From Anaerocolumna chitinilytica (GTDB lineage: Bacteria; Bacillota; Clostridia; Lachnospirales; Lachnospiraceae), in contig NZ_AP023368.1 in NCBI RefSeq assembly GCF_014218355.1, positions 5,147,501 through 5,211,500 on the forward strand: DNA of 64,000 nt, given 5' to 3'. The notes beneath the pieces are model-generated. The model worked only from the letters and a program-made list of their open reading frames with translations. It was not told where the DNA came from and did not search any database. Below, piece by piece: positions 4,817 to 38,133 of the stretch. Positions within the stretch are counted from its first letter, which is position 1. The number at the start of each line of letters is the position of its first letter. The position numbers and the translations under genes are program-made.

Positions 4817-4824
4817 CAATTTTC
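4817..4824. repeat. Left copy of 8-bp target-site duplication (CAATTTTC)
   Basis: CAATTTTC lies immediately outside the IS66-type end GTTACTGTTCA at 4825. The identical octamer lies immediately outside the opposite end at 38126-38133. Eight-base duplications are characteristic of IS66-family insertion. The two copies bracket the entire AT-rich island. Confidence 0.85.
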
Positions 4825-5074
4825 GTTACTGTTCAGAGGTGACTCGAACTAAAAAAACCGATGGTGTAGACTGATTTCAGTCAAAGCCATCGGTTTTATC
4901 TTAACCAAAGGTTCTGGATATTCTATCGAATACATTCTGCTCTTCATTTCTGCGCATCATAACCAGCATACTCATGCATTGACAGAGGTAATCGATACTC
5001 GCTTGACTCCGGAATGACATGGCCTACACCTGTTTTCGTTTATAGCCTCTTTGAAGCCTTTCGGCTTCATTATT
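4825..5074 (-). mobile_element. IS66-family remnant (transposase C-terminus and right end)
   Basis: Minus-strand translation from 5074 gives NNEAERLQRGYKRKQ, an internal stop, then a region ending SRTFG at the stop 4901-4903: the C-terminus of an IS66 TnpC transposase. The same sequence, slightly diverged, is found at 36447-36620. The element end GTTACTGTTCAGAGGTGAC at 4825 matches the one at 36370. Everything upstream of the NNEAE motif is missing. Confidence 0.85.
4851..4897 (-). terminator. Intrinsic terminator of the left IS66 remnant
   Basis: Stem AAACCGATGG (4855-4864) pairs with CCATCGGTTT (4887-4896); on the minus strand the 3' arm is followed by a run of T. It lies just after the transposase stop and may shield the GH20-like operon from read-through out of the island. 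Confidence 0.8.
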
Positions 5075-5099
5075 TGAGTTATGCAATTATTATCATAAC

Positions 5100-5368
5100 T
5101 CAAACAATGCAGCGGAAAACGCTATTCGTCCATTTACTGTCGGGCGAAAAACTGGCTGTTTATAGATACCCCCAAAGGAGCAAATGCATCCGCTGCTGTA
5201 TATAGTATCGCTGAGACCGCAAAAGCCAATGGTCTCAATGAATATACTTACTTAGAGTATTTATTACTTTACATGTCAGACACTGATTGGGAAAAACATC
5301 CAGAATTACTTGATGGTCTAATGCCGTGGTCATCGGATGTACAAAGTGAATGTGAATGTAAAAGGTAA
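5100..5368 (+). pseudogene. Second IS66-type transposase fragment (C-terminus only)
   Basis: Plus-strand frame reads SNNAAENAIRPF, then a VGRKNWLF-type core, a YLEYLLLYM segment and the stop at 5366-5368. This is the C-terminal tail of a different IS66 subfamily from the minus-strand remnant beside it. No start or catalytic N-terminal part remains. It begins at the same NN-A/E-AE motif at which the opposite-strand fragment begins, with a palindromic 25-bp spacer between them. Confidence 0.82.
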
Positions 5369-5372
5369 TTCT

Positions 5373-5399
5373 CAGGATCGGTTATTATAACTGATCCTG
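5373..5399 (+). terminator. Hairpin after the plus-strand IS66 fragment
   Basis: CAGGATCGGTTA pairs with TAACTGATCCTG (5373-5384 and 5388-5399, one mismatch), followed by a short T-rich stretch. It sits 5 bp after the fragment's stop codon and is probably its original terminator. Confidence 0.6.
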
Positions 5400-5730
5400 T
5401 TTCGATTTAAAAGGCATTATCTTATTAAGAGCTTACTATCAATGGAAAAAGTACTCGCAATATACTCAATGAACTGGTCAACAGCAAAAATATCCCTACT
5501 AAATTTTCCCAATTAGATTTCTGAAAATTTATAAGCCTCACCTGAACAAATCCTTGAAGATCTAAATGGTATTCTTACCACTTTGCTAAAACGGATGATG
5601 AAAGAACTTCTGCTTCACATGGATGAACTTTATCAAATATGGTAGTATTTTTGCACTATTATAGTACATATAAAAGTAGCTTTATACAAAATCATTTATA
5701 GTACATTCGAATCACCATAAATAATTCGGT
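5400..5730. other. AT-rich gap at the 3' end of the biosynthetic cluster
   Basis: About 330 bp between the IS66 fragment and the stop of the FkbH-like gene. A short plus-strand reading near 5535-5643 gives helical residues ending LYQIW and stop, which may be further transposon debris. I recognise no gene or strong terminator here. Confidence 0.4.
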
Positions 5731-7338
5731 CTAAATAAATTTAAAAGTATTATTTAATAATTCAAATACGGCAGCATTTTTACTTGTATTTTTAAAGAAA
5801 AAATTATCTATAAGATATTTGCTAACAATAAAATTTATCATTTTGTTTTCAATATTTCTACCTAGTGCTCTACATGATAAGCAATATAAATCTAGTATAT
5901 ATTTTGATTCATATTCTTTAATTCCAATAGCACCTACAACTCCTAGGTCCCCGAATTTGTCCGAAACACGAACACAATATAAATAATATCCATCTCCATC
6001 TAGTAATTGCTTTAATTCTGATACATTATATCTTTTACCATTTGTTAATTTATTTGTCCGTTGAGATAACTCAGCTATTCGAAAAAAGTTATTTGTTATT
6101 TTATCAAATGAAATATGCATATTTAGTTCTTCTAAATACTCAGTATATGAAGTGTATTTATTTAACATTTCTTGACGCAATTCATTCATTTTATAAGTTT
6201 GATTGCGTTTCTCAACATCACTAATATTTACAGTTATAGATAAATTAAAAAGACTTAGGTTATCATATATATTATTTATATCAAATACGATAGTTCTCAA
6301 TTCTGGTATAATTTTTTTAACTGCTTCAATTTCAAAATTTGAATCATCAATAAATACCATACTATCAAAATCAATATTTAAAATTTTTGATATTTTTTTT
6401 ATATTATCAACTTTATTATCCCAGTTTACCTGAAAACAAGCTATATGTTTTTCTTTTAAAATCATTTCTTCATGATTATTAAATATATATTTTATGTCTT
6501 GTAAATCATTTTTACTACAAACAGTAAGGATTACACCTAATTCATAAAGTGTATATAAAAAGCTCTGAAATTCTTTATAAAACTTTCCTTCGATACCGCC
6601 TAGTTTTACATTTTCAATACCATCTTCGCTTATAATTCCTTTCCACAGTACATTATCACAGTCCAAAACTAAGCATTTCTTATTTATCCCCTTAAAAATA
6701 CAATATTGTTTTTTAATTTCTTTTGCTACTTCAGCTAAAAGAATTTCACTGTACGGAGATAACCATCTATATTTACCACTAAAATTATAAGCATTACCGA
6801 TCCCAACTATAGCTATTAATCTTTTTAGGTCTATGAGTATTGATTGCTTACTAATAATATCCCTTACTCTAGAATTAATTTCGTCAATTTCATCTACATT
6901 GTATAATTTACTAATGACATTTCCTATACAAACGTTAAGCTTATTAAAATAATTTTCAAAACTAACCCAAATTATTTGAGCATTTGTTAATTTACAAAGA
7001 TTCATATTTGTTACTTCTACTAACTCCAAAATATTACTAGATAATTCACCAGTCTTTAAACTTTTATAAATCGAGCTAAAATAAAATAATTCTTCATAAT
7101 TAAGCCACACTATGCAGATATTTGATTGATTTATTTGGGTTTTATTTGTTTCTTCCATATAATCTTGAAATTTAATATAATTTACTTTTGAATAATATCC
7201 TTCTTCGTTAAATTTCTTTAATAAATAAACATTTAAATAGGGAGCGACTGTAATGTTAGAAATTACCGTAATACTTACACATTTTAAATTATTCTTATCT
7301 AAAGTTTTTAAACTGTCTAACAAATTTCTAAATTTCAT
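5731..7338 (-). CDS. FkbH-type HAD protein (putative glyceryl-ACP-forming enzyme)
   Basis: 535 residues. The N-terminal third resembles the SGNH-like domain that precedes HAD domains in FkbH proteins. The HAD-IIIC core has motif I DCDNVLW (D226, D228), motif II around CSKND (274-278) and motif IV FIDDS (D331, D332). A GNAT-like C-terminal domain follows (RIAELSQRTNK to KFGDLGVVG). In studied pathways FkbH proteins take 1,3-bisphosphoglycerate, dephosphorylate it and load a glyceryl group on an acyl carrier protein. A free carrier protein is encoded 240 bp upstream. This is the last gene of the cluster. It is AT-rich throughout. Family call is firm; the exact substrate is inferred. Confidence 0.87.
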   Translation of the reverse strand: MKFRNLLDSLKTLDKNNLKCVSITVISNITVAPYLNVYLLKKFNEEGYYSKVNYIKFQDYMEETNKTQINQSNICIVWLNYEELFYFSSIYKSLKTGELSSNILELVEVTNMNLCKLTNAQIIWVSFENYFNKLNVCIGNVISKLYNVDEIDEINSRVRDIISKQSILIDLKRLIAIVGIGNAYNFSGKYRWLSPYSEILLAEVAKEIKKQYCIFKGINKKCLVLDCDNVLWKGIISEDGIENVKLGGIEGKFYKEFQSFLYTLYELGVILTVCSKNDLQDIKYIFNNHEEMILKEKHIACFQVNWDNKVDNIKKISKILNIDFDSMVFIDDSNFEIEAVKKIIPELRTIVFDINNIYDNLSLFNLSITVNISDVEKRNQTYKMNELRQEMLNKYTSYTEYLEELNMHISFDKITNNFFRIAELSQRTNKLTNGKRYNVSELKQLLDGDGYYLYCVRVSDKFGDLGVVGAIGIKEYESKYILDLYCLSCRALGRNIENKMINFIVSKYLIDNFFFKNTSKNAAVFELLNNTFKFI

Positions 7339-7579: not shown

Positions 7580-7825
7580 TTAATTATTATTAAGCATTAC
7601 TAATAACTCTGCAATTTTATGTACTGTATTTAATTCACTTAATAGCAAGTTTTCATCTGGAATTTCTATACAAAATTCTTCTTCTAATGATATAATAATA
7701 GAAATAAATGCTATTGAATCAATTCCAAGTTCTTCAAATGACATTTCTAAGGATTCTTCTGTAATTTTAGTATCTTCTGTTACCTCATTTACTATGTCAA
7801 TAATTTTTATAATAATATCATTCAT
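7580..7825 (-). CDS. Stand-alone acyl carrier protein
   Basis: 81 residues, acidic, predicted four-helix bundle. The phosphopantetheine attachment serine lies in ELGIDSIAF. The start at 7825 (MNDIIIK) follows TGGAGAAT; the longer frame to 7852 has no ribosome site. Not a fatty-acid-synthase context: no fab genes are nearby. With the FkbH-like protein (5.7 kb) and the BtrH-like putative acyltransferase (10 kb), it would be the shuttle carrying a glyceryl or similar acyl unit. An IS21 remnant now separates it from the gene upstream. Confidence 0.88.
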   Translation of the reverse strand: MNDIIIKIIDIVNEVTEDTKITEESLEMSFEELGIDSIAFISIIISLEEEFCIEIPDENLLLSELNTVHKIAELLVMLNNN

Positions 7826-7999
7826 ATTAATTCTCCAATAATTTATTTTCATTGCTTTATTATTAATTTTTTAACCTAATTTTACTTAGCTTTTGAATAT
7901 TCCTGTACTAATTGATCCATCTGACCAGTAATTGAGGTACACCCTTCCGGTAGGCAGATTGATCTTGAAATAGTGTACTTTGATATCTTTAAGCCCATG

Positions 8000-9844
8000 T
8001 CACTCTCGCATAGATAAGAGATCATCAATCATCACTTCGTAAGAATTGTGTATGATTCGGTCAATGATGGCTTCACATACAGTTGCATCGCTTTCGTTGC
8101 CATTGTGTGTATACCATTCGCTTGGTTCAAATTGTGTGCAGAAGATAATAGAGTCCTTTACACTTCTGGATTCAATAATCTCCAGTAGTTCTCGTTCCTG
8201 ATCACTTGCCAATGGTGTGAGGAGAAATTCATCTATGATCAGAAGATTCACTTTCTAATAAGATTTAATGACTTTCTCAAAAGTACCCTCTCCATGAGCA
8301 ACCGTCAGTTTGTTTAGAGTATCCGGCAACCGCGCATAGCTTACTTTTATAAAGTTTTTACATGCTGCAATACCTAAGGCACAAGCAATGTAAGTTTTCC
8401 ATTTCCAGAGGCTCCTTTCAGAATGATGTGATGGCTGTCTGCGATATATCGGCAGGTTGAAAACTCAAGCATCTGGGGTTTGTCCAGATTTCTGTCAGCG
8501 TGATATTTAATGTCTTCTACACAGGCATTGGGATAGCAAAATCCTGCATCATGGATTATTTTTTGAAGTTTGGTACTTTTACGTTTATCGTGTGTACCTC
8601 CAACACTTTCTGCCCATTCAAGGAAAGAATCTGTACTGTATTCAAGATACTTCCTATGATTTTCAGGCATGTGCTCCGGTAGATAACATGGAGCTAAAGA
8701 ATAAATCTTTCAAACATGTGATGCGATACGGTTGTTATGAAAGAAGACTTCTATACAATTATCTATAGTACGAATATCAACTTTCTTACCAATAAATTCA
8801 TAAGAACCAGAATACTTACAATCCCCGACAGTTGTGAGATAATCAGGTTGTATGGTGGCAGTTGACCAGAGGGCCGTTTCATTTGGGGAAGCAGGTAACA
8901 GCATGAGGAATTCTTTTTCTTATTCAACAAATGCGGTAAGCCTGCTCCCTTTGCTTTTTTGAAATGGTTTTGTATTAAATTCTTCTAGTTTTTCAATAAT
9001 CGCTTTTTTAAGATCTTCTAATGAGAAGAATTTACGGTTACGAAGAGCAGCAAGAATCCATGTCTCTATCACTTTTTACTGTTCCTTCAGCAGTAGGCTT
9101 GTCTTTCGGTTTTATAGGCCTTGCTGGAATAATGGCTGCCCCATAATGTTCAGCCATTTCATAATAAGAACGGTTCAAAATAAGTTCCGTTCGAGTATTC
9201 TTGATTACACCGGTTTTTAGGTTATCAAGAACTAAAATACGCGTAACAACCCCCAAAGTGGGTATAAGCATGTACACGTGCTGTGATCCAATGGTTGGAT
9301 TTCATGTCAGGAAATGTTCCAGCATATCTATACATACTGCATGGAAGACAAGCTACAAACACATAGGCATTTACATTGCAGCCAGCAGCAACATCAAAAA
9401 CAGATAAAGTATTTCCAACCCAATCGACCTCCATGATCTTTCCAGGCTTACGATTGATACGAAGAGTAGCCTTCTTAGCTGCAGCAAATGCGTGATACTT
9501 CTCATTGAATTGTGCATGCTGGTAAGGAATCGTGTTCTCCAATTCACATTTGGTACAGTATTCTGCCCAAAGAAGTGATAGCGTTACGCCTGTTTTGGCA
9601 AGTTCCTTATACACGTACTCATAATCAGGATGTTTTCTTCTTTCTCTTGTGGCACGATCAGGATAAAATAGTATTTCAATATCCCTGTTTGTCAGTGCCT
9701 CTGGAATTGGCCAGTCTAGGTTATGCGTTTCTGTAAATTTTAAAACGTCAGAAACTGTGTTACGTGAGCAACTGATACTGTTAGCAATACCTGCGTTGCT
9801 AAATTCAGACTATGTAGTCTGATGATTTCTTGATAATCAACCAT
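8000..9844 (-). mobile_element. IS21-family remnant, istA and istB broken and fused
   Basis: The minus strand starts at the ATG at 9844 after AGGAGG with MVDYQEIIRLHS, an IstA N-terminus. It continues through several frameshifts: integrase-core pieces near 9600-9230 and 9277-9038, and the IstA C-terminus near 8900-8710 ending RIASHV. IstA-like EHMPENHRKY runs straight into IstB-like sequence near 8600, so an internal deletion fused the two genes. IstB follows with Walker A GASGNGK (frameshifted near 8380), an in-frame TAG near 8256, and Walker B-like LLIIDE down to 8000. The element splits the carrier-protein gene from the BtrH-like gene. Exact ends were not resolved. Confidence 0.85.
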
Positions 9845-10001: not shown

Positions 10002-11126
10002 TCAAAGATTGCTATTTATTTCATTAATTAGTATATTCATGCTCTTGATCTCGTTTTGTTGTAATATGTTGATGTATTCCTCAAGAGATTTTTTTGATTT
10101 ATTTATATTTTTCGAGATAATTAATTTTAGTGCAACTGATAATATAATTCTTGCTAGCTTTAAGTTATTTTCAAATAAATCAATGATAATTGTATGAGAA
10201 GGTATAAATTCTTTATCTATTAAATATTTAACTCGATTAAGCATTAACTTTTTGTGTTCATATAACAAATGATAAGTTCGTATATCAAGTTCATCAGCAT
10301 CTTTAATAAATAATAAGTTATTTAATAAATTCTCATAAAACCCTATGTTATAATACTGTAATTTACAATTATAATAAAAACTAAAATGTTTAGAAAAATG
10401 TTTAGCCATATTTTCTGAGTTATTGGATATATTTTTTTTATTTGAATTATAACTATTAACATAAAATAACAATTCTTCTAATGTATATTGAATATTGAAT
10501 TGATAACTTGGTGCTTCAACTCTTTTTATAAAAGTAATATTTTGTTGATTTTCATTGTTTACAGACACACAAGTTACTTGAATATTATATGATTTCAAAA
10601 AATCCTCAAAAAAAATTTCTTCCGATATATATCTTCCATTATCCAAATTATCCCTTGCATAAAAAATTCTTTTTTCTAAATCATATCCATATATTAATGT
10701 CAGATGAGGGTTATGCTTATATTGATAACAAGGTGACTTGGGCAAGTAATACCAATCTAAATATAATGATATATATAATCCTTGATTTATAGCTTGTATT
10801 ATTGTTTCTATTATATTATAATTATTTTTGTTCTTTAAAAATTCTTGATCTATATGTAAATATTTCAACGTAGGAGCCGGCATATTATTAGAATATCTCC
10901 CCAATTCCAAATGTTCTCGATATGAACTAATGCTTCCTATATAATCGTAAACTTCACCTTTATGAGTCATATATTTATAATATTCTATAGAATAAATCTG
11001 TATGAAACTGCTATAAATCCAATCCCAACTTTTAGGATTATTTAAATCAATCACCGAAAACATAACGCCAAATTCTGGATAAGTAGTTAAGATAGGATTT
11101 TCATTAATCTCAAGTATTTTTTTCAT
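10002..11126 (-). CDS. BtrH/C39-like protein, putative acyl-ACP-dependent acyltransferase
   Basis: 374 residues from the ATG at 11126, preceded by a run of eight G that serves as ribosome site. The middle (about residues 130-190) reads LYLDWYYLP, then KHNPHLTLIYGYD and FYARDNLDNG. This is the pattern of the papain/C39-like BtrH N-terminal family, in which a His in the HxPH stretch and the YGYD strand are conserved. In butirosin biosynthesis BtrH transfers an acyl group from a carrier protein onto an amino group. The N-terminal cysteine expected in catalytic members is not obvious (TYPEFGVMFS at the usual place), so it may use another residue or act non-catalytically. The C-terminal half is helical and unrecognised. 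Confidence 0.5.
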   Translation of the reverse strand: MKKILEINENPILTTYPEFGVMFSVIDLNNPKSWDWIYSSFIQIYSIEYYKYMTHKGEVYDYIGSISSYREHLELGRYSNNMPAPTLKYLHIDQEFLKNKNNYNIIETIIQAINQGLYISLYLDWYYLPKSPCYQYKHNPHLTLIYGYDLEKRIFYARDNLDNGRYISEEIFFEDFLKSYNIQVTCVSVNNENQQNITFIKRVEAPSYQFNIQYTLEELLFYVNSYNSNKKNISNNSENMAKHFSKHFSFYYNCKLQYYNIGFYENLLNNLLFIKDADELDIRTYHLLYEHKKLMLNRVKYLIDKEFIPSHTIIIDLFENNLKLARIILSVALKLIISKNINKSKKSLEEYINILQQNEIKSMNILINEINSNL

Positions 11127-11258
11127 ATCCCCCCCCAATTTTCTATTTAATATTAATTACACAAAATGAGCACTAAAGATAAAGGTTTATATATCAAGCC
11201 TATATAATAAACCTTAAACGAAAGAATTTATAAAATTCTCACAATTATTTCAATTGAA

Positions 11259-12515
11259 TCATTCCATCTGCTCGTCATCCAAATCACTTATATAAATATC
11301 TCTGGTATATAATTTTTCCCAAACATCCTCTAACTCTTTAGAATATCTATTAGCTACAATCAAGTTAGACATTGATTTAAATTTGACAAGATTATTTATT
11401 ACCTTATTTCCATGAAACATTTTATCTTTACATTCTGGTTCATAAATTACAATATCTACTTGCCTCTCTATACTCTCAATAATATCAATGACACTACTTT
11501 CGCGAAAGTTGTCAGAATTTGCTTTCATAATCAATCTATAAAAACCTATCACTGGTTTAGCATTCCCAAAATCTTTATCTTTACTATTTATTGAAAAATG
11601 AGATAGTTTAAGGATTTTTTCTGAAATAAACTTTTTTCTGGTATAATTTGATTGTACAATTGCTTTAATTAAATTCTCTGGGACTCCATCGTAATTTGCA
11701 AGAAGCTGTTTCGTATCTTTCGGTAGGCAATATCCTCCATATCCAAAACTTGGATTATTATAATGTTCACCAATTCTAGGATCCAGACCCATTCCTCTAA
11801 TAATCTGTTTTGTATTCAAATTTTTCATTTCGGCATATGTATCTAGTTCATTGTAAAATGACACTCTAAGTGCAAGATATGTATTTGCAAAAAGTTTAAT
11901 AGCTTCGGCTTCAGATGGATTTACATAAAGTATAGGAATATTTTTTTTAATGGTACAATATTTATATATTTTAGTAAAATTATACGCATTCTCTTTTAAA
12001 TTACTATCTATCCAGCACCCCCCCATTATAATACGACTTGGGTAAAGATTATCATAAAGGGCATGTCCTTCTCTTAAAAATTCCGGAGAAAAAATGATAT
12101 TATTACTGTTAAATCTTTTACATATAGACTCAGTATACCCAATTGGAACAGTAGATTTAATTATAATGGTAGCCTCTGGATTAGTTTTTATAACTAAATC
12201 AATCACTTTTTCTATAGAAGTTGTATCAAAACAATTCAGCTCTGAACTAAAATTCGTTGGGGTAGCAATAATTACATAATCTACATCCTTATAAGCTACT
12301 ATAGAATCCTTAGTAGCTACAAGATTTAATGTATGATTTTCAAGGTACTGCTCTATTTCGTAATCAACTATTGGTGATTTTCTTTGATTAATCATATTTA
12401 CTTTAGATTCATTAATATCAACAGCTATAACTTTATGATATTGTGCCAATAATATAGCATTTGCTAGTCCTACATAACCAATTCCAGCAACTGCAATTTT
12501 ATACTCATTTTTCAT
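11259..12515 (-). CDS. UDP-glucose 6-dehydrogenase family protein
   Basis: 418-residue NAD-dependent nucleotide-sugar dehydrogenase that oxidises the C6 alcohol of a UDP-sugar to the uronate. Seen: N-terminal Rossmann GIGYVGLANA, the SPEFLREG catalytic strand, a central dimerisation helix region, catalytic cysteine C263 in GYGGYCLPKD, and a C-terminal Rossmann domain. Length and motifs fit short bacterial Ugd enzymes. The start at 12515 follows GGAGTG. Inside the cluster it would supply UDP-glucuronate or a related acid sugar; the neighbouring oxidoreductase and aminotransferases could act on the product. Whether the substrate is UDP-glucose or UDP-GlcNAc cannot be read from the sequence. Confidence 0.9.
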   Translation of the reverse strand: MKNEYKIAVAGIGYVGLANAILLAQYHKVIAVDINESKVNMINQRKSPIVDYEIEQYLENHTLNLVATKDSIVAYKDVDYVIIATPTNFSSELNCFDTTSIEKVIDLVIKTNPEATIIIKSTVPIGYTESICKRFNSNNIIFSPEFLREGHALYDNLYPSRIIMGGCWIDSNLKENAYNFTKIYKYCTIKKNIPILYVNPSEAEAIKLFANTYLALRVSFYNELDTYAEMKNLNTKQIIRGMGLDPRIGEHYNNPSFGYGGYCLPKDTKQLLANYDGVPENLIKAIVQSNYTRKKFISEKILKLSHFSINSKDKDFGNAKPVIGFYRLIMKANSDNFRESSVIDIIESIERQVDIVIYEPECKDKMFHGNKVINNLVKFKSMSNLIVANRYSKELEDVWEKLYTRDIYISDLDDEQME

Positions 12516-12716: not shown

Positions 12717-13737
12717 TCATTTTATTGTTTGCAAAAATGTATTGTAATTACCCTTTACCTCTTGTAACCCACCTTCATTCAAATATAAAATATGATCTGC
12801 TAACTTATTTATCAAATATCGGTCATGAGATATAATAAATAATGTTCCTTTAAAATTGTTTAAAATAATTTCCAGAGCCTCTCTGGAAATTATATCTAAG
12901 TGATTGGAAGGTTCATCAAGAAGTAAAAAATTAGCGTTTGATAGCATTAATAGCATTAATTGAATTCTTGTTTTTTCACCACCACTTAGTTTATTTATTT
13001 GTTTGTAAACTGAATCTCCTCTAAATTGAATATTTGCTAATACTTTTCGAACTTCTGTCTGAGACATCAATGGCTATCCTATCTCTTATTTCATTTACAA
13101 TAAATTTTGTTGAATTTAAACCAGATAGAATCTGGCTATAATATCCTAGTTTAACACCTGGTCCAAAATGAAACTCTCCACTATTAGGTGTAAACTCATT
13201 TACTAATATTTTAAAGAAACTTGTCTTCCCACAACCATTTGGTCCAATTAAAAAAACATGTTCTCCACCTCTTATTTCTATATTAATATTTTTAGTAATA
13301 GGAGCTTGACTAAAAGAAAAACATAAATCTGCTACCAATAAGTGCTCGACTACTTAAATTTTCACTTGGTAATAATTTTTCTCTGGTTTAACTAAAGCAT
13401 TTTCCAATCTTTTAATCATTTTCGTCTTACTCTCAGCCATTCTAATATTTTTTCTCCCTTCTCTTTGTTGTTTTTACTTTTAGTATCCCATTTCAAGAGT
13501 TCTGGTAGTTACTTTATCTAAGAAATAACTCTCATGTGATATTACCAAAATAGTGCCATCATAATTAATCAAAAAGTTTTCCAGCCATTCCAAATCATTT
13601 ATATCTAAATGATTTGTAGGCTCGTCCAATAACAATATATGGGTTTTCTTACCGATAATTTTGCTTATTGTATTTTTGATTTTTGGCAAATAAGGCCATA
13701 TAGTTTCCTCTCTATAAAATATATATTTGCAATACAT
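12717..13737 (-). pseudogene. Decayed ABC-F ATPase gene (possible former self-resistance gene)
   Basis: Three minus-strand pieces belong to one ABC-F protein. 13737-13480 has LLLDEPTNHLD and the HES switch of the first ATPase domain. 13338-13021 has the second Walker A (GPNGCGKTS). 13070-12717 has the second signature LSGGEKTR, LLLDEPSNHLD and SHD. Frameshifts lie near 13480-13340 and 13060, and the first Walker A region is missing. The linker is recognisable but interrupted by stops. ABC-F proteins of this class protect ribosomes from antibiotics or act in translation. Its place inside a biosynthetic cluster suggests lost self-protection, but a housekeeping ABC-F fragment carried along is possible. 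Confidence 0.82.
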
Positions 13738-13740
13738 ATT

Positions 13741-14841: not shown

Positions 14842-14869
14842 CTCTATCTCTCCTCGTATAATATTTTTT

Positions 14870-14888
14870 AAGATACATAATGTATCTT
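14870..14888. promoter_or_regulatory. Perfect 19-bp palindrome upstream of the Gfo/Idh gene
   Basis: AAGATACAT, A, ATGTATCTT lies about 30 bp upstream of the start codon. It could be an operator or a small RNA hairpin. No regulator gene is present in the cluster. Confidence 0.45.
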
Positions 14889-14939
14889 TATAACTTAATA
14901 AATTTTGTTCAATATGCTTAGTTAAGCCCATGATATAAT

Positions 14940-15206
14940 TGTTTTAGTGTCAATCAGGTAATAGTTCTTTTTTCTCCTGTTGAACCAGTAATGATTGCTT
15001 CATAATAAGTCTGTTCCCCTGACATGGAAGTTAGCTTCAAACCGGCTGGTTGTTTGCTTAAGTACATGGACGACCATCTGGCAGTGTGGTTTCGCATCTG
15101 TCCATCTTAAGCTGGATTCTTATATGCGAGGGTGTCGATACTCCATGATCATGGGGTTTACCAAGCGATTGAACACTCAAATTTTATTACAAAAGAAGGT
15201 GATTTT
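14940..15206 (+). other. Non-coding left end of an IS110-type element
   Basis: About 270 bp of less AT-rich sequence than its surroundings precedes the IS110 transposase start. IS110 elements carry a long non-coding end there that encodes the structured bridge RNA. Several self-complementary stretches are visible (around 15030-15150), but I cannot fold it reliably. Coding content is absent. Confidence 0.4.
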
Positions 15207-17274: not shown

Positions 17275-17298
17275 ACTATACCTCATCATTAATTTTGT

Positions 17299-21982: not shown

Positions 21983-22198
21983 ATTTTTGCTCAGTTAATA
22001 GTTACTTTTAATAGGAGTATCCTAATGCTAAAATACCCTTAATAGGTAATTAGCAAAGGTTAGTTCTTATTTTCCATGCAAAGCATTATACTATTGCCTC
22101 TGGATGAATGCTAATTATGCGAGGTTTCATTCAGTACTTTTGATTAGTATATCCCTATTCTAATTTCCTCATTTTCTTATTCCAAAGGCGGTAATATC

Positions 22199-24354: not shown

Positions 24355-24376
24355 AAGATCACCCAATTCTTGGATA

Positions 24377-25977: not shown

Positions 25978-26101
25978 ATTATATACATATGTATTAACAA
26001 AAGTTAACCATACTTCTCCTCTCAATAAATTATCATTCTTTCAAAAACACTCTTTCGCTATTTTGCATCTATACTGTAATCGGTTAATAAAATCAAAAGT
26101 A

Positions 26102-28809: not shown

Positions 28810-28917
28810 ATAATTCACCTCCTTCTGCAATCCTTTCTTTATATATATAATTAAATACTACATAATCAAAAGTTTTAAAAAAAATATAAGCAATCCCAGT
28901 AACAGGGGAAAAACCAG

Positions 28918-29213: not shown

Positions 29214-30473
29214 TCATTTAAAAATTAGAGGTTCAATCTTTTGATTATTTTTTTCTAAATATTTATATACTTTTAAAATACCTTTAGCAGAAACATAAGC
29301 ATCGTCTACTGTCATCGAAGGGCCAGTTTCCAAATCAACAGTTCTTGGTATTTCTACATCAGCTACTGGTAAACTATCTGGCCATTCTGTAAATAGCTCT
29401 TGTCTCATACTACACTTATAGGGGCAGATTTCATTATTATATGCATTTTTATTTTTCAGCCATTCTATTTGATGTAATAAATCATGTGGGGGTTTAATAC
29501 TAATGTTTTCTGCTTCAACAGCATAGATAAACCAGTCTCTATAAGCAGTAAGTTCATATGGTAACTTCAATGCTTTTCTGAAATATATATGTCTTATATT
29601 GTCTGGAACAATTCCAACATCAATTCCACAATCACTCAATACTTCTTCATAGACATGTGCAACATTTCTTCTTCTCATAATTTCGTTTTCAATATCTTCA
29701 ATGCCTTGTATACCTAAAGTAGATTCAAATTCTGACATCATATACCCAAATCCCATGCGCTTATGTGTTGACCAGCCATTTTCTTTACCTTTATTTACAA
29801 CTTGGCGACAAATATCAGCAATAACATCATCATTGGTAATTACCATTCCTCCTTCTCCAACAGTAAGTATTTTACGTGGTGCTGCGAAACTAAAACATGC
29901 AACTGATCCAAATGTACCTACTTTGTTTCCATTAAGCATAGCTCCATGTGCCTGCCCACAATCTTCAATAACAACAAGATTATGGTCTTTCGCTACTTGA
30001 CATATTGCCTCCATATCAGTTGGATAACCATACAGATGTACAGCAATAATTGCTTTTGTTCGTGGACCAATACGTTTTTTCAAATCATTTATATCAATGT
30101 TTAAACTATTTTTTTCAATATCACATACAACAGGTATTGCATTCTGCAATAAAATAGCTGAAGCTGCCGTAACAAAACTTGTTGTTGGTAAAATCACTTC
30201 ATCTCCTGGTCCAATACCAGCAGCAATTACTGCTGTATGTAATGCTGCTGTACCAGAGTTCACTGCTATAGCATGTTTCACATTATTCCATTCTGCAAAC
30301 TTTTCCTCGAATTCATGTGTAGCTTTACCACCATACCAATCTGAATACTGACCAGCATTTAACATATCGATAATTTTTGTTTTTGTTTTCTCATTTGCTA
30401 CTGTTCTAGGAACTATACGTTGTTCTCTACTCTTATTTCCACCATAAAAAGCTAAAACTTCATTTTTGTCCAT
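29214..30473 (-). CDS. DegT/DnrJ/EryC1/StrS aminotransferase (second)
   Basis: 419 residues. VNSGTAALHTA near residue 72, VIEDCGQAHG with the PLP-binding Asp171, and lysine K201 in FSFAAPRKILTVGEGG. The N-terminal GGNKSREQRIVPR and the C-terminal tail are typical of cyclitol/AHBA-like members. It clearly differs from the first aminotransferase (limited identity by eye), so the pathway probably installs two amino groups or aminates two substrates. The start follows AGGAGGATAATG. It is 31 bp downstream of the propeller gene. Confidence 0.9.
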   Translation of the reverse strand: MDKNEVLAFYGGNKSREQRIVPRTVANEKTKTKIIDMLNAGQYSDWYGGKATHEFEEKFAEWNNVKHAIAVNSGTAALHTAVIAAGIGPGDEVILPTTSFVTAASAILLQNAIPVVCDIEKNSLNIDINDLKKRIGPRTKAIIAVHLYGYPTDMEAICQVAKDHNLVVIEDCGQAHGAMLNGNKVGTFGSVACFSFAAPRKILTVGEGGMVITNDDVIADICRQVVNKGKENGWSTHKRMGFGYMMSEFESTLGIQGIEDIENEIMRRRNVAHVYEEVLSDCGIDVGIVPDNIRHIYFRKALKLPYELTAYRDWFIYAVEAENISIKPPHDLLHQIEWLKNKNAYNNEICPYKCSMRQELFTEWPDSLPVADVEIPRTVDLETGPSMTVDDAYVSAKGILKVYKYLEKNNQKIEPLIFK

Positions 30474-30504: not shown

Positions 30505-32292
30505 TTATATTACTATCTCAATTACAACTAATCTATGTGCTGAATAATCCGATATAACATAACTATTTTCACTGTTTTTAACAATAAATCGTGGATCATG
30601 AAACGAAGATATTGGATTTACATAACCATCATTAGAAGATGATTCTTGATAAATTGGAAATAACAAATTTTTATTTTTATCGTAAACTATAAGGTTATAG
30701 TCCATCCTAAATATATCTGAATAGACAGTAATTGTTTCTGTATCACATATAGCTTTAGGACATGAAAATTTTATTGTCATATTCTCTTTATCAGTAAGTT
30801 CAGTAATACGTCCTAGGACTGTTCCACTTCTAAATTCAAGAATCCATATACCAATACTATCAACCACTGTTAATGTATTATCTTTATTCATACTTACCTG
30901 ATGCGGATCTCTAAATTTTATTCCATTAGAATCTTGATTTACTAACCAATGTATACTCCCAGAATAATCAATTTCTGCTACATATGCAGATTCACTATCA
31001 ACTATTATCAATGTATTATGACTCGTTACATAAATATCGTGAACATCTAGCAATTTTATGGTACATCCATTGCGGTTAATTATATTACTTATCTCGTAAA
31101 GAGTTTTTCCTAATCTATCTACAACTAGAATTCTATTGTTTAGTGAATCTGCAATTATTATATCTTCATTGTTTCCCATTCTAGCACATCGAGGCCAGTA
31201 TAATTTAGCATTAAATACAGCATCTTTATCACCATATGACCAATAAATTTTGTTATTAGCATCAATTTCAATCACTCTATTATTATTCGTATCTGCCACT
31301 AACCACTTGTTATCATCTGTCTTTTCAATTGAACGAGGAAAGGATAGAAATCTTCGGGGAACTTCTTTTTGTCCTATATACCAAATGACCTCTCCTGTTT
31401 TGCTAACACAAATCACTCTATTATTACCCGTATCTGCTACAATTAAATTTTCGTTAGGAAGACTTACTATTACAGCAGGACAACAAAAAGGTCCTATCAT
31501 AGCTCTTTCCTCATCTAAAATTGGTAATATGCTTCCTATTAGCTGTCCCTCTTGATTTAATTCTAATATTCTATTATTTCTTGTATCAGATATTAATACT
31601 GTATTTCTTGATGAGCATCTTGCACATAATGGACCCGACAAATATCCGAAGTTCGAACCAGGCCTTCCTCTATTTCCATAACTCCAAACAATATTTTTAT
31701 CCATGTCTACACATAATACCTGATGTAATATAGTATCTGTTATAATAATTTCTTTCCCCTGTAGTACATCGATGTAAGTAGCTTCACCTAAAATCTCTTT
31801 ACCAGGACGCCACTGCCATATAACTTTGTCCTTATGCAAAATTACAATACCCGCTGATAAATATTCACCATCAATAACGGATTCTTGATCAGCTATTATT
31901 ACATAGTCTTTATACGTAATAGCCATGCTCGGCCAATGAACCTCATTTATTTTATTAGAATCAAACAATTTCTTTATTATTTTTCCTGTGTCATCAATAC
32001 AAAGAATTTCTCTAGGATGATTACCACAAACAATTAGAAACTCATTATTTCCCATTTTATGAGCTGATTTTATACGGTTTGTATCACATTTCATATTAAT
32101 GAAAGGAAATCTTGTTAGTTTCTGTTCTTGAATGTCAAAAATCCAATTTTGACTTTTACCATCGTCAATTATAATAAGCTTGTTATTATATATTTCAATA
32201 TATACAGGCTTATCTATAGGACTTATTTTCATTTTTTTAATTCTTTCGATACCTATTTCCTTAATAATTCTGCAGCATTTTACATCTTTCAT
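30505..32292 (-). CDS. NHL/ASST-like beta-propeller protein
   Basis: 595 residues, cytoplasmic (no signal peptide). Repeating units of about 45-55 residues contain the NHL-type phrase (IIADSLNNRILVVDRLGK, VVADTGNNRVICVSKTG, VISDTRNNRILELNQEG), each followed by aromatic IxW(S/R)YG strands. At least five repeats are plain, enough for a full propeller. Such folds usually bind proteins or small ligands; arylsulfotransferases and some lyases share the fold, but I see no catalytic His set. A propeller gene is unusual in an antibiotic-like cluster and its role is unknown. Confidence 0.72.
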   Translation of the reverse strand: MKDVKCCRIIKEIGIERIKKMKISPIDKPVYIEIYNNKLIIIDDGKSQNWIFDIQEQKLTRFPFINMKCDTNRIKSAHKMGNNEFLIVCGNHPREILCIDDTGKIIKKLFDSNKINEVHWPSMAITYKDYVIIADQESVIDGEYLSAGIVILHKDKVIWQWRPGKEILGEATYIDVLQGKEIIITDTILHQVLCVDMDKNIVWSYGNRGRPGSNFGYLSGPLCARCSSRNTVLISDTRNNRILELNQEGQLIGSILPILDEERAMIGPFCCPAVIVSLPNENLIVADTGNNRVICVSKTGEVIWYIGQKEVPRRFLSFPRSIEKTDDNKWLVADTNNNRVIEIDANNKIYWSYGDKDAVFNAKLYWPRCARMGNNEDIIIADSLNNRILVVDRLGKTLYEISNIINRNGCTIKLLDVHDIYVTSHNTLIIVDSESAYVAEIDYSGSIHWLVNQDSNGIKFRDPHQVSMNKDNTLTVVDSIGIWILEFRSGTVLGRITELTDKENMTIKFSCPKAICDTETITVYSDIFRMDYNLIVYDKNKNLLFPIYQESSSNDGYVNPISSFHDPRFIVKNSENSYVISDYSAHRLVVIEIVI

Positions 32293-32319: not shown

Positions 32320-33312
32320 TTATATACTATTACTTAATATCTCCTGCCATTTCAGATCTTTTATCAAATTCTTATAAACTTTATATGAATAACAATTCTC
32401 TACAGGATATAACCTATCAGGATGCCGAATAATTGATCTAGTGACATATTCACAAACATCGGCAAGTTGAAATAATAATACAAAATCACCAATCATTTTT
32501 TTTTCAGTATTACTAAGGGGACGATATAAATTATAAGTTTGTATTATCTTCGTAGCTCTATCTAAATTAATTTCCATGTTATTCTCATCCATAGCCCAGT
32601 TATGAATTAATGACGCTATATCATTTATTAAATATGTAATATGTGATTCATCAAAATCTAATAATATTATGTTTTTAGTCATTTCATTGAATAGTACATT
32701 CGTATTATTTGCATCATGATGAATTACTCCTGTAATTAAATTTTTATTATTTTTTTCTAAACTTTTTTTAAAACTATAAATAAAATTATCTATATTTATT
32801 AATAATTCATTATATTTCGAGTCTACTATTTTTGTTTTATCAATCTTATAAATAGCTTTTATTCTATCCATATCATTTCGAGATCGATATACTTCAGAAG
32901 AAAAATTTATAGCTGTATTATGTAAATTAGCTATAAGCTGAGTAACTAGTAAAGCATCTTCTAATGATTCATTATTCATATGATTACCTTCTTCAAATGT
33001 AAATAGAGCAGCTTTTATACCACAGAATATGCAATACAAACCGTTGTTTACACTATTTATAATTGATGCTGTATTAAACCCTTTATTAATTAAATAATTT
33101 ATTAATTCTAATTCAAAATCAATTTCTTTATCAGTCGTATAGTTATAACATCTAAGTACATAACTATATTTATCTGAAACTATTTTTATATTTAAATTAT
33201 CCTCGCCTTCACTTAACTCTTCTGTTTCAATGTATTGAGCTGAAATTCCATAATAATCAAGTAAAACATTTCTAATATCTTTTAAATCCCATGTAATTTT
33301 AATATGGCTCAT
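32320..33312 (-). CDS. APH-family small-molecule kinase
   Basis: 330 residues with the aminoglycoside-phosphotransferase/homoserine-kinase-II fold. N-lobe YVLRCYN with the ATP-contact strand; catalytic loop HHDANNTN (D200, N205); metal site LLDFDES (D219). The start follows AAGGAGTGAG. It is the first gene of the cluster as transcribed. Either a biosynthetic kinase (phosphorylating an aminocyclitol or sugar) or a self-resistance phosphotransferase; the sequence alone does not decide. With the ABC-F gene dead, this and the exporters are the only remaining candidate self-protection functions. Confidence 0.82.
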   Translation of the reverse strand: MSHIKITWDLKDIRNVLLDYYGISAQYIETEELSEGEDNLNIKIVSDKYSYVLRCYNYTTDKEIDFELELINYLINKGFNTASIINSVNNGLYCIFCGIKAALFTFEEGNHMNNESLEDALLVTQLIANLHNTAINFSSEVYRSRNDMDRIKAIYKIDKTKIVDSKYNELLINIDNFIYSFKKSLEKNNKNLITGVIHHDANNTNVLFNEMTKNIILLDFDESHITYLINDIASLIHNWAMDENNMEINLDRATKIIQTYNLYRPLSNTEKKMIGDFVLLFQLADVCEYVTRSIIRHPDRLYPVENCYSYKVYKNLIKDLKWQEILSNSI

Positions 33313-33869: not shown

Positions 33870-34483
33870 TTAAATATCCCATATCGAAAGAATGTTGCAT
33901 AAAATATCCGCAAGCTCTTCTGATATAAAAATCCGGCGGCTCTTTGGGCCTTTCGATTGCATAACATCTATATATCTTTTATTAAGGTGGATATTTTTAC
34001 AGCTCAAGGTCTGCACTTCCTTACAACGCAGTCCACAGCAATAAAGGGCCTGTACACGGTGGGGAGGACTAGATGCCTCCCCCTATAGTGCATATCTTCA
34101 GTTATGTTATCACACGCTTCAAAGAAGGAAGATACCTCCTCTGCCGTGAAAAATACGGCTGGACAGGAGTTGGTAACGGCACCTTCTTTGCGGGGATTAT
34201 GTATACGTTAGATTATCCCCTACCATAAAGATACCTTCCAAACTCACGTATAACAGCGACCGCATTATATAAGCTGCCGGGTGAGCCTGCGTATCTATTA
34301 TATATCCATGAAAGCTTCTACAGTCCTTTTGGAAGGGACAGATTCATGCGGGCTTAAGCATCCTGAAAATGCCACATACCACTTTAGGTGATATTCCCCT
34401 CCTGTGTAAATACAACCGTTGCTCCGTTTATAAGCTAGGAACTCTTTCACCTGCCGGCTTAGATTTTTATTCTCCATCCTCAT
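33870..34483 (-). pseudogene. Tyrosine recombinase (phage-integrase family), broken
   Basis: The minus strand starts at 34483 with MRMENKNLSRQVKEFLAYKR, a SAM-like N-terminal core-binding domain. After stops and frameshifts it continues with FFTAEEVSSFF, YCCGLRCKEVQTL (the first catalytic Arg region) and GPKSRRIFIS, ending at 33870. The distal His-x-x-Arg and Tyr box is missing. It sits directly downstream of another broken recombinase, as in tandem recombinase operons of Tn554-like or three-recombinase elements. Confidence 0.72.
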
Positions 34484-34489
34484 ACACCC

Positions 34490-35560
34490 CGCTTTCTGAC
34501 CGGAGCACTGTTGAAGCGGCGTTGTGTCGGGTAAAAAGACTTCCGGTCATTCTGCCTTCTTTACGGATATCCGCCTTCGCTTCCACCAGCATCGGAATAT
34601 ACCATACCGCACCCGTCCCTTCCAGTTTTTCATATGGTGCCAGGCTCCTTAAGAATAGGTACTCTGAATCATTGTCGGGACGTTCGTTCAGAATCTGCAA
34701 TAGCATTACCATATGAATTCCTAAGAGGGATATTCAGTGGCTGTTTCGTTTTATCCTGAATAATACTGATGATATCCTTGTCCCAGTAAATATCTGTCAG
34801 TTTCAGCTCACAGACATTGATACCTCGCAGCCCGGTCTCCATAAGCAGCTTAGATATGGCTATATCCCTTTCGGATAAGGAATCTGAGGATAGGGTATTA
34901 TTAATGGCTATGAGTTCCTGTTCATTATAAACTTCAATGATCTTTCTCTCGTTAGGGAGGCGTGATGGCAGTTCCAGTAGTAACTGATTTGTATGGTCGT
35001 GAGCAGACAGAAACTGTCGGAAACCAGACAATTTACTGGTAATAGTAGTTGGTTTGAAATAGTCGTTCCGATAGATAGACATAATAAATTTAGTGACATC
35101 ATTGGTCTTGATATCGCCAAGGTCAGTGTATCCTTTCTCCTGGCAGAAAATGAGAAAATAGAAACTATGCGTTTATATCTGCAGATAGTGTTATCATTCA
35201 GGCCTTTTTAGTCAACTGATGTAAAAAATCTTCAAGTAGTAAACAGAATTCTGGCTCATCTACCGGCGCTGAAATATCTCCCTGCTTTTTTGGGGAACAG
35301 TCTTAAACCCCACTTTCCATAACAGATGTCAACAAGTTTATACATCTGCTATAGGTTCGCATCTTCAGGATATTTGATTTCCCGGATTCCGGATTTATGG
35401 CTTCATTCAGGAAGCTGTTGAATAATTCCTCTGATGGGTAGACTGTGCCCATTCCTTTCGCTATGTGCAATAAATGTTTGAAGCGGATACGGTAATTCTT
35501 GATGGTTCTTTGGCTGTATTTTTTTTGTTCCAGCGTCTCCAGAATTATCTAAATCAACTC
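34490..35560 (-). pseudogene. Second tyrosine recombinase, broken by frameshifts
   Basis: The minus strand from about 35560 reads LEQKKYSQRTIKNYRIRFKH (N-terminal core-binding domain), then CRYKRIVSIFSHFL and TTITSKLSGFRQFL. The catalytic domain then starts: LMETGLRGINVCELKLTDIYW (Arg I). ILNERP and SLFTRHNAAS (the H-x-x-R-like box, altered) follow. Frameshifts occur near 35290, 35140 and 34700. Adjacent to the other recombinase remnant at 33870-34483. Confidence 0.75.
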
Positions 35561-35657
35561 TACAAGTCTCATTTCATCATACATTATCATTGGTTTCTTT
35601 ACTTTTTTGAATTAAGCATGGAGGATTATGCAGAAAAAAGTAATGGAAGGATAAAAC

Positions 35658-35717
35658 TATGCCGATATTTTTCTGGGAATCCGCACAGATACGGAATATC
35701 CCCAAAATATCGGCATA
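35658..35717. repeat. Imperfect 60-bp hairpin
   Basis: TATGCCGATATTTT pairs with AAATATCGGCATA, and inside it GGGAATCCG pairs with CGGAATATCCC. It lies between the recombinase remnants and an IS256 remnant, and could be a recombination site or the end of a mobile element. Confidence 0.55.
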
Positions 35718-35742
35718 AATCGTGTTACGCTGAAATCGGTAT

Positions 35743-35955
35743 AATACTACGAATATCATTGAGGGGCTGAACCGTCAGTTTCGAAAAGTTACAAAGACAA
35801 AAAGTTCTTTTACAAATGACACATCCCTTGAAAAAATGCTGTACTTTGCGTCCATGAATGTGATAAAAAAATGGACACAATGCTACCGGAATTGAGATAT
35901 GGTATTAAGCCAACTTGGACTCCTGTTTAATGACCGACTGGCTCAGTACCTATAA
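35743..35955 (+). pseudogene. IS256-family (mutator) transposase C-terminal remnant
   Basis: Plus strand: NIIEGLNRQFRKVTKTKSSF, then SLEKMLYFASMNVIKKW, an in-frame TGA at 35893-35895 where a Trp is expected, then LLFNDRLAQYL and the stop at 35953-35955. This is the last 70 residues of an IS256 transposase. The catalytic part is gone. Confidence 0.82.
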
Positions 35956-35964
35956 ACAGAAAAA

Positions 35965-36009
35965 GTAACCGGCGTAAGGTTCAATAATCTGAACCTATGC
36001 ACCGGTAAC
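35965..36009 (+). terminator. Strong hairpin after the IS256 remnant
   Basis: GTAACCGGCGTAAGGTTCA pairs with TGAACCTATGCACCGGTAAC around a 6-base loop, 10 bp after the stop codon. It is a long, GC-containing stem, probably the element's 3' structure; the T run is weak. Confidence 0.55.
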
Positions 36010-36369
36010 CATAATTCCGTCGGTATTATAATTATTGACGTGTAACTCATATTTATTCCAGAGGTCGGGTGTGGGCAGCGCCTATATTTACTTGATGTGC
36101 CTGAAAATAAATAAACATGAATAATTAACCATTAAATGGATAACCTATAAATGAACATATAGTTGGACATAGGATACATATTTTATACTTACCAAGAAGC
36201 AGATTTTTGTTATCTAATCTTAGCTTCGGACACAATATTTTTTACGCTCTCATAAATTTTATTTGATCATACAACATACAACTATTTTTATTTGCTGATA
36301 AATAGCCACTTTTTCGCTGGATTTTTGGAATGTTATCCACATTAGCATGGTATAGTCTTCTCTATTTCT
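36010..36369. other. Gap without a recognised gene, left of the right-hand IS66
   Basis: About 360 bp between the IS256 hairpin and the inner end of the IS66 copy. No open frame with a start signal and no clear repeat was seen. Confidence 0.4.
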
Positions 36370-38125
36370 GTTACTGTTCAGAGGTGACCTTGAACTAAAA
36401 AAGCCGAAGGTGAAGACTGATTTCAGTCAAAGCCATCGGTTTTATCTTATCCAAAGGTTATGGATACTCTATCTAATACATTCTGCTCTTCATTTCTGCG
36501 AATCATAACCAACATGCTCATGCATTGACAGAGATAATCAATACTCGCTTGACTCCGGAATGACATGGCCTGCGCCTGTTTTCGTTTATAGCCTCTTAGA
36601 AGCCTTTCGGCTTCATTATTGGTTGTGGGAATTCTGTAATCGCATACTGCAATCTGTTTCAGGTGGAAGATTATTTCGATAATGAATCATTTTCCGTATT
36701 AGTGAATGTATCTGTTTATTCCATGTGCGGTCAGACTCATTACCCATGCTGTCTTTGCGATAACGTAAGACATGTGCAAGACACTCCTGATGATCGCTGC
36801 CATAGTTGAAAAAAGTGCTTTCATGATCATAAAACAGAGTTCCTTGGTATTCTTCAACCACAGCAGATTTTACTCCTTCGTGCCCTTTTTTCTCACGGGC
36901 AAAGTACATGACTTTCCCGTCTGGTGTTGCAAATACATATACACTTTTCCCATTCACCTTTGCATTGGTGCAGTCGGTATGCATGACCTGCGACAGCAGC
37001 ATATCTGCAAACATTGTTTTTCATTCCTGTTCTGATTTTGGGTAAACTCTTTACTGATTTTATTTATCATGCCTTTTGATATGTTAAGCTGTCCGCCTGT
37101 TAGGTCAGACAAAAATATCAATAGAAGTACAGCATTCATTATTAAACAGGAACAAAAAAGCTTAGATACTTCCCTCATAATTCGCGTCATCCACAACTCC
37201 GGCAGGGAATAGTCTCGGTTATTTTGTTCTCTCAATTTCAAATTCTTCCCCTTTTCTTTTTCCAATTCTGTTTCTAAGTTATATAGTTTATGTCTCTTTC
37301 TGTTACTTTATTTCATAAATCAGCTAACTGTCGCTCTGTGCTTAATGCTCTCTTTTCCAGCTGTTTATTTACTTTTTGGAAATGCTCAGTTTGTGTTCGA
37401 ATTCCTTCTGGATTTTTTCAAAAATTTCAAACCACTGATTGCGGACCGTGATAGTCTCCCTATGGACAATTGATAGTTCTTCCTCTAATCTCTTGATGAT
37501 ACGTTCTAAATTACGGAGTTCTTTCAGGTATTCTTCCTGCATTTTGATATACTTATCGCCAGACTTTAAGGCTCTCACTACTGTGATGGCTGTTTTTAGA
37601 CGATATTCAAGAGTGGTGATGTATTCAAAGGAAGTATTTCATTCGATTAGCTTTTCTGACACGCTTTTAAAATTTTTTCCATTAATCTTGTTAATTCGGA
37701 CACCTGATCTTCCGATTTTTTATTGTTTGATAAGTTCTTGTTGTATTTTATTCTCTTTTTCAAGGCCTAAAATCACCTTATCTCGAATATCGAAATTATT
37801 ATTAAACTTTTGGGTCGTAAATCGTCCTCGCTTTCTGACAAAAGTATATCATAAATCCTTGTAAAATGCGAATTTGCGGTTGTTTCAGTATTGGCAATTT
37901 GATGGTGGATAATGTCATTATACATGAATAAAAAATGAAAAAAAGTGTCTGAATCCATCAAATATTCGAGTGATTAAACCTTGGATGTGGATAAATTCCA
38001 TCAAAAAGAAATGAGGAAGATAACCATAAACCCAATTATCTTCCTCAAGCTTGTTATCCACAAAATATAAAAAATTAAATTTCGTCACATTTCATAATGA
38101 ATTAATGTGGAGAGTGAACAGTAAC
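36370..38125 (-). mobile_element. IS66-family element with broken transposase (right boundary of the island)
   Basis: 1.76 kb between GTTACTGTTCA (36370-36380) and TGAACAGTAAC (38115-38125). The transposase reads on the minus strand from about 37961 to the stop at 36447-36449. A coiled-coil N-terminal part (near 37578-37369) is followed by NISKGMINKISKEF, MHTDCTNAKVNGKSVYVFATPDG and YDHESTFFNYGSDHQECLAHVLRY (TnpC catalytic core). A deletion/frameshift near 36640 then joins the TTNNEAERLLRGYKRKQAQA tail. There are several further frame breaks near 37020, 37300 and 37700. The first bases outside the inner end (CTATTTCT) do not match those outside the outer end. Confidence 0.85.
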
Positions 38126-38133
38126 CAATTTTC
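38126..38133. repeat. Right copy of 8-bp target-site duplication (CAATTTTC)
   Basis: Identical to 4817-4824 and immediately outside the outer IS66 end. Joining the two flanks through one copy recreates a continuous intergenic region between the RpiR and GH20-like genes. Confidence 0.85.

Follow-up and report, generated by a model that had tools for sequence, protein, structure and literature searches.

The window analysed here is a 64,000-nucleotide stretch of DNA, C1:5147501-5211500 of a 5.62-Mb single-contig genome, and it holds a 33.3-kb island between two host genes. To the left of the insertion is a GH20 gene that heads a sugar operon (2830-4704, minus strand; PF18088, 184.8 bits). To the right is a gene for an RpiR-family regulator (38290-39123, plus strand; PF01418 and PF01380). 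The island is bounded by IS66-type insertion sequences (ISs), and its cargo looks, from its genes, like a cytosylglucuronate-type (blasticidin/mildiomycin-like) nucleoside cluster. The best reading of the island is that of a fossil IS66 composite transposon, and it is held with somewhat more confidence than doubt.

The two outer boundaries carry the same repeat, CAATTTTC, which is exactly 8 bp long and identical on both sides. The left copy of this target duplication (4817-4824, unstranded) lies directly before GTTACTGTTCA at 4825-4835, and the right copy (38126-38133, unstranded) lies directly after the inverted GTTACTGTTCA, which ends at 38125. The inner end of the right IS66 copy (36370) is preceded by CTATTTCT, which agrees with CAATTTTC at just 5 of 8 positions. 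Both results confirm an earlier note on this DNA, in which an exact 8-bp repeat outside the outer ends and a non-matching inner flank had been described. By itself CAATTTTC is common, with six copies in the window against a mean of 6.78 in shuffles. The scar is unusual because the exact octamer sits at two exact inverted element ends, and not because of the octamer itself. Exact GTTACTGTTCA ends occur in the window twice in the forward and once in the reverse direction. It could be argued from the frequency of CAATTTTC in this AT-rich DNA that the octamers match by coincidence and that the two IS66 copies arrived independently. This is hardly credible. The probability of a shared octamer at random position pairs in the window is 3.55e-5, and at that chance per given pair of ends a coincidental match was rejected; independent arrival is opposed by a locus that is uninterrupted in two congeners.

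The left IS66-type copy is a 252-bp stub (4825-5076, minus strand) that was recognised by alignment to the right copy and consists of the outer GTTACTGTTCA end and the 3' end of tnpC. The right copy is a 1756-bp element (36370-38125, minus strand) with both ends exact and a coding region decayed by internal deletions. Its PF03050 score is 37.2 bits, above the cut-off of 23.1, and a PF03050 search of the organism's own genome gave a match at this copy alone. The stub and the right copy have the same orientation and are identical at 235 of 252 aligned positions (93%). A complete set of IS66 transposase genes is absent from the two copies, the right having deletions and the left being a 252-bp stub. 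With both copies decayed, the island is, judged from its sequence, a fossil.

A related element in another genome of the family (G133, locus L070) is better preserved. It is 2358 bp long, with GTTACTGTTCA at one end and the inverted copy at the other, contains a transposase-like frame of 558 aa (judged by resemblance), and is flanked by exact GCCGGAAT octamers, an 8-bp duplication. The right copy lacks several segments that are present in this relative, and the two share inverted terminal repeats; in the right copy these are exact over 11 bp at either end. Because the relative shares these ends and stands in an exact duplication of 8 bp, the scar can be regarded as the right kind for an IS66 element. 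Together with PF03050 in the right copy, this bears out the claim that the ends are of the IS66 type with 8-bp duplications. DNA matches to this IS66 were found in 2 of 15 genomes of the genus, namely its own and G013, where 118 bases of the right end are the sole match in the 14 congeners searched. In the family, at least 8 of 397 genomes have a match, own included; two candidates per genome were scored in that search, so the count is a lower bound. No second location of the unit appeared in these searches of genus and family genomes, again with two candidates scored per family genome.

The layout is that of a composite transposon, with two copies of one IS around the cargo and a duplication at the outer ends only. 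Two direct copies of one IS66-type element would have come to flank a 27%-GC nucleoside-biosynthesis cluster. A transposase acting on the two outermost ends would then have moved the whole segment into CAATTTTC, a target between boxes that separate the GH20/ABC sugar operon from the RpiR regulator, and repair of the 8-bp stagger would have produced the duplication. All 33.3 kb would, we infer, have moved together in one step.

The same locus can be seen in congeners that lack the island. RpiR is present at 76-77% identity in 2 of the 14 other genus genomes (G007 and G010), and the remaining matches are at 26-31%. In both, the permease and binding-protein genes of this sugar operon directly adjoin RpiR, divergently and with no island, and neither genome gave a DNA match to this IS66. 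The 120 nt to the left of the scar align with the intergenic DNA of these congeners, from 4722 to 4823 in G007 and from 4721 to 4818 in G010, so that the last aligned base takes the alignment up to the scar. This score was reached by none of 500 dinucleotide shuffles in either congener. Two GAAAGT boxes (4766-4818, plus strand) lie in this left flank, and the insertion is at the edge of the second. The two congeners have the same arrangement, with a box spacing of 39-40 bp in each of the three genomes. On the far side of the insertion lies a third box, the palindromic GAAAGTTACTTTC (38254-38266, plus strand). We take these to be RpiR operator boxes. The insertion would then have split an operator array while sparing the promoter-like TTGAAA-16-TATAAT (read by eye), which was left with the GH20 gene, and the RpiR gene, which is intact.

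An empty site of the same species was also sought. The exact 26-base join pattern gave no matches in the genome contigs, a collection that may exclude the organism's own or near genomes. Relatives of the GH20 gene at E<=1e-100 were found in 22 of 397 family genomes, own included. This RpiR was not found beside GH20 in five neighbourhoods from four genomes (L078 and L112 of G002, L109 of G156, L110 of G342, and L111 of G306). The GH20 gene of L110 is at a contig end, and L078 has a 28% RpiR relative about 8 kb from its GH20 gene. The earlier note had named two results that would speak against the island, cargo next to RpiR or GH20 without IS66 ends and an empty site joined away from CAATTTTC, and neither was seen.

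The closest organism-named homologue of RpiR, among the best 120 of 508, is from Anaerocolumna xylanovorans (Lachnospiraceae; P0054, 72%), so the host is most likely a member of the Lachnospiraceae similar to Anaerocolumna and hence probably an anaerobe. In a clustering at 90% identity, the cluster of RpiR proteins, 98% identical to the query, comprises 11 sequences from 8 contigs. The relative of cytosylglucuronate (CGA) synthase encoded in the cargo has one member on one contig, and a GT-A-fold protein of the cargo is likewise from a single contig. This difference suggests that there are other strains or closely related sister species, some of which probably lack the cargo. The gene after RpiR (39134-40084) is on the minus strand here, whereas in G007 and G010 its counterpart next to RpiR is on the plus strand, which makes a local inversion likely. 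The homologues of this gene in the congeners start in the manner of ROK kinases.

The GC content inside and outside the island was compared, as the earlier note had proposed. It is 0.305 inside and 0.388 and 0.408 outside, and it varies within the island. There are 17 open cargo genes, every one of them on the minus strand, with a mean GC of 0.273 and a GC at third codon positions (GC3) of 0.174 (range 0.12-0.21). The 16 host genes of the window have a GC of 0.408 and a GC3 of 0.411. The island is a mosaic of low-GC cargo genes and broken mobile elements of host-like GC. Comparison of the cargo with this debris indicates that the cargo, which looks foreign, probably came from DNA richer in AT, whereas the IS debris is close to host DNA in base composition. 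Broken mobile elements of five kinds, counting IS66, are found inside the island, and their host-like GC, where measured, could suggest that the island grew in place, with an IS66 followed by nested insertions and recombinations that added cargo piecemeal. Such growth is quite improbable, since the shared strand and uniformly low GC3 of the 17 cargo genes argue for arrival as one cluster. A search of the own genome with the DNA between the IS66 copies found no strong second copy, only stretches of 81% over 146 bp and 69% over 329 bp (40 of 124 and 40 of 143 candidates scored).

Several observations weigh against a composite transposon that entered whole. The left copy retains one end only, which limits the comparison of inner flanks to the right copy. 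Among six related IS66 loci that were fetched, an exact duplication is present in one; L074 has two exact ends with flanks that agree at 0 of 8 positions, and the other four have no pair of exact ends. The empty-site check holds on the left side alone, as the 156 nt to the right of the scar gave no significant congener alignment (scores at least as high came from 25 and from 383 of 500 shuffles). Neither G007 nor G010 has a GH20 gene at this locus, and G010 has a 25% relative elsewhere. Seven remnant stretches were measured at a host-like GC of 0.36-0.42, compared with about 0.27 for the cargo, a mosaic that would allow for later entry of some of the content. The claim that the whole segment was inserted in one event is supported in part, by the exact scar and ends and by the island-free locus in two congeners. 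The 33.3 kb may or may not have entered at once, because integration of a circle at an IS66 already in place would produce an identical outer scar.

It is therefore possible, although doubtful, that the scar dates from an earlier insertion of one IS66, and that the cargo came later on an IS66-bearing circle by homologous recombination between the two copies, which would place direct IS66 repeats around the cargo within the old scar. The direct orientation of the two copies and their 235 of 252 identical positions fit such an integration, which also predicts an identical outer scar, and the mosaic composition and tyrosine recombinase remnants fit cargo that came second. However, a site with a single IS66 was not found in the genomes read, which include no other strain of the species, and a recognisable piece of this IS66 is present in one congener alone, the fragment in G013. 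The fossil composite transposon is still preferred.

The cargo contains several genes related to nucleoside antibiotic biosynthesis, all on the minus strand. The CGA synthase relative is encoded at 24377-25495 (TIGR04467, 54.2 bits; equivalog cut-off 300). The protein agrees at the 20 columns that are invariant among 20 aligned proteins, itself included, one of which (P0025) is named CGA synthase. Its closest homologue is P0002 (45%), for which the source labels differ, Paenibacillus versus Chlamydia abortus. A radical S-adenosylmethionine (SAM) enzyme related to the cytosylglucuronate decarboxylase BlsE is encoded at 17299-18318 (TIGR04466, 136.2 bits; cut-off 400). TIGR04466 is its best family, its best PDB match is 7vob, a cytosylglucuronate decarboxylase, and CX3CX2C and GGEP motifs are present (read by eye). 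A CMP N-glycosidase of the MilB/BlsM/4jen type is encoded at 25519-26025, and its closest PDB chains are a CMP N-glycosidase, a CMP/hydroxymethyl-CMP hydrolase, and Blasticidin M (4jen, E=1e-24; 4jem; 5vto, 5e-18). There are also a UDP-glucose/nucleotide-sugar dehydrogenase (11259-12515; TIGR03026, 314.3 bits, cut-off 189.8; PF03721) and two DegT/DnrJ/EryC1 aminotransferases (26102-27328 and 29214-30473; PF01041, 288.8 and 289.7 bits). The CMP glycosidase, the dehydrogenase, the CGA-synthase and BlsE relatives, and DegT thus point to a blasticidin S/mildiomycin core. The 4jen protein is a bacimethrin enzyme, and bacimethrin was set aside as the pathway because the CGA-synthase and BlsE relatives are in the same gene run.

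Other genes of the cargo could be responsible for tailoring and export. An FkbH-domain protein (HAD-IIIC) is encoded at 5731-7338 (TIGR01686, 234.5 bits, cut-off 146.65), and an acyl carrier protein at 7580-7852 has a DSI serine motif that was read by eye (best score 37.7 bits, below equivalog cut-offs). The product of 10002-11138 is a BtrH-like putative acyltransferase with no PDB sequence match. A Gfo/Idh/MocA oxidoreductase (13741-14931; PF01408, 89.1 bits), an NTP_transf_5 nucleotidyltransferase-like protein (16243-17289; PF14907, 103.6 bits), and an APH/homoserine-kinase-like phosphotransferase (32320-33312; PF01636, 62.3 bits) were also identified. As a tracer of the cargo, NTP_transf_5 was set aside, since 6 of 397 family genomes match, own included, and the other five at 23-34% identity are too remote. 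Two ABC exporters (18346-20130 and 20117-21928, together 18346-21928) each have PF00005. A PHP-domain phosphatase-like protein (23539-24390; PF02811, 30.6 bits) is related to RNase RNM and nucleoside bisphosphate phosphatases, below the cut-offs. An NHL-repeat protein (30505-32292; PF01436, 63.6 bits) has a weak match to ScyF and no evident role in the cluster.

A 499-aa GT-A-fold glycosyltransferase-like protein (27331-28830) has no Pfam family and an AlphaFold model with a pLDDT of 84.8. In Foldseek it matches glycosyltransferases (best E 1.7e-6) with query-length TM-scores of about 0.2-0.34 in the rows shown, from which it follows that one domain was matched. A Gfo/Idh domain is also carried by 6 of its 28 listed homologues, which suggests that the GT-A and Gfo/Idh proteins may be a paired enzyme step. 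Some of its homologues are from actinobacteria, such as Streptoalloteichus and Lentzea.

In the blasticidin S/mildiomycin core, as set out in two papers, cytosine and UDP-glucuronate form cytosylglucuronate, which is decarboxylated (PMC3715490, PMC11784345). A similar product route can be proposed from the genes. The CMP glycosidase would provide cytosine and the dehydrogenase UDP-glucuronate, the CGA-synthase relative would join the two, and the BlsE relative would decarboxylate the cytosylglucuronate. The Gfo/Idh and DegT enzymes would oxidise and aminate the sugar. An acyl group, perhaps a glyceryl, would be attached by the FkbH, acyl carrier, and BtrH-like proteins, and the finished compound would leave the cell through the two ABC proteins. 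Some scores count against this assignment. The CGA-synthase and BlsE proteins are to be called relatives, not certified members, because they score below the NCBIfam equivalog cut-offs, and the BtrH-like protein is just under its cut-off (PF14399, 29.3 bits against 29.7).

Genome contigs were searched for similar loci with an alignment of 20 of the 29 listed CGA-synthase homologues, query included. A CGA-synthase relative was found in 35 loci. It is accompanied by BlsE, DegT, and CMP-glycosidase relatives at E<=1e-5 in 19 of these, which include Paenibacillus, Anoxybacillus, Mesobacillus, and Xenorhabdus, and is alone in eight; the neighbour counts cover up to 10 kb on each side, often shortened by contig ends. 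FkbH, acyl carrier protein, BtrH-like, Gfo/Idh, NTP_transf_5, PHP, GT-A, NHL, and APH had no match at E<=1e-5 in the 35 loci. The gene set may not be fully peculiar, however, as L024 has an APH-family gene by Pfam. In addition, the GT-A homologue P0151 and the CGA-synthase homologue P0004 are both listed on a contig of 16,515 bases from one source, and the two may occur together elsewhere. Three Paenibacillus loci (L023-L025) and a Lachnospiraceae metagenome-assembled genome (MAG; L026) resemble the cargo in CGA synthase (42-43%) and CMP glycosidase (37-47%), and all four have a BlsE relative. They also differ from it. L024 adds genes for a nonribosomal peptide synthetase, an Asn-synthase-like protein, and a methyltransferase (10 of 38 open reading frames tested), and no match to DegT or FkbH at E<=1e-5 was obtained in the 14 kb of L026. 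IS110-type and rve-type transposase genes are near the CGA core of the latter (L026:9090-11634; 10 of 17 open reading frames tested).

The remaining features of the island are broken mobile elements and one other remnant; the seven GC-measured stretches leave out the last of those listed here. The C-terminal piece of a second, different IS66 transposase (5055-5365, plus strand; PF13817, 35.5 bits on frame 5099-5365) is inverted relative to the left stub, and a related stretch of 146 bp (81%) is at G000:C1:3055687-3055834. A broken IS21-type element (7889-9809, minus strand) has IstB (PF01695, 31.5 bits) at 8377-8709 and an istA-like piece at 9228-9809 that was assigned by eye and has no Pfam match; no 8-bp target duplication was found around this nested element. 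An IS110-like element (14995-15812, plus strand) was assigned by eye, its piece at 15600-15812 having no Pfam match. A second, IS110-type element (22148-23261, plus strand) has PF02371 (43.3 bits) at 22909-23151, and around it only four scattered octamers were found, which were taken as chance without a shuffle control. An ABC-F-like ATPase remnant (12720-13740, minus strand), in pieces in several frames, was recognised by eye, with no Pfam match for the piece at 13483-13740, and is flanked by the dehydrogenase gene on one side and the Gfo/Idh gene on the other. Ribosome protection is a frequent role of ABC-F proteins. Broken tyrosine-recombinase genes (33873-35548, minus strand) have PF00589 at 34672-35172 and 33873-34082 and none at 34301-34546. 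A Mutator/IS256-type transposase tail is at 35734-35892 (plus strand; PF00872, 27.4 bits).

Both the scar and the cargo belong to known kinds. Tn6097 of Paracoccus is a 17,759-bp transposon of the IS1634-family ISPfe2 that was caught on a trap plasmid with 6-bp duplications (PMC3281130). It also has cargo between two copies of one IS and a target duplication at the outer flanks. Unlike it, the island here is of the IS66 type, measures 33.3 kb, has a biosynthetic cluster as its cargo, and lacks a complete transposase gene. ISPpa5a and ISPpa7 of the IS66 family, in the same paper, share the IS66 transposase domain and the 8-bp duplication; their terminal repeats are 22/20 and 35/26 (columns as interpreted), in contrast to 11 bp exact and decayed copies here (PMC3281130).

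For the cargo, two papers describe a CGA synthase and a radical-SAM CGA decarboxylase in both the mildiomycin and blasticidin S clusters, and mildiomycin shares in addition the nucleotide hydrolase MilB, the DegT aminotransferase MilD, and the acyl carrier protein MilI (PMC11784345, PMC3715490). By comparison, the core here is joined to FkbH, BtrH-like, GT-A, and NHL proteins, and the cluster lies inside IS66 ends in a host that is probably an anaerobe. This chemistry is described there from Streptomyces and Streptoverticillium (PMC11784345, PMC3715490). No paper on a nucleoside antibiotic gene cluster in anaerobic Clostridia was found in the collection searched, and absence from print is not claimed.

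The cargo is of more interest than the scar. A readable scar around an antibiotic-type cluster allows horizontal arrival to be argued from the junction, beyond GC content alone. The cluster would place blasticidin/mildiomycin-type chemistry in what is probably an anaerobe of the Lachnospiraceae, together with tailoring genes that make up an unusual set. That a complete cytosylglucuronate pathway of a new subtype, with FkbH/acyl carrier protein/BtrH acylation and GT-A, was carried into the anaerobe as one 33-kb IS66 composite transposon can be put forward tentatively, with slightly more doubt than confidence. If such one-piece carriage is true, IS66 would be a vehicle for whole antibiotic clusters in Lachnospiraceae.

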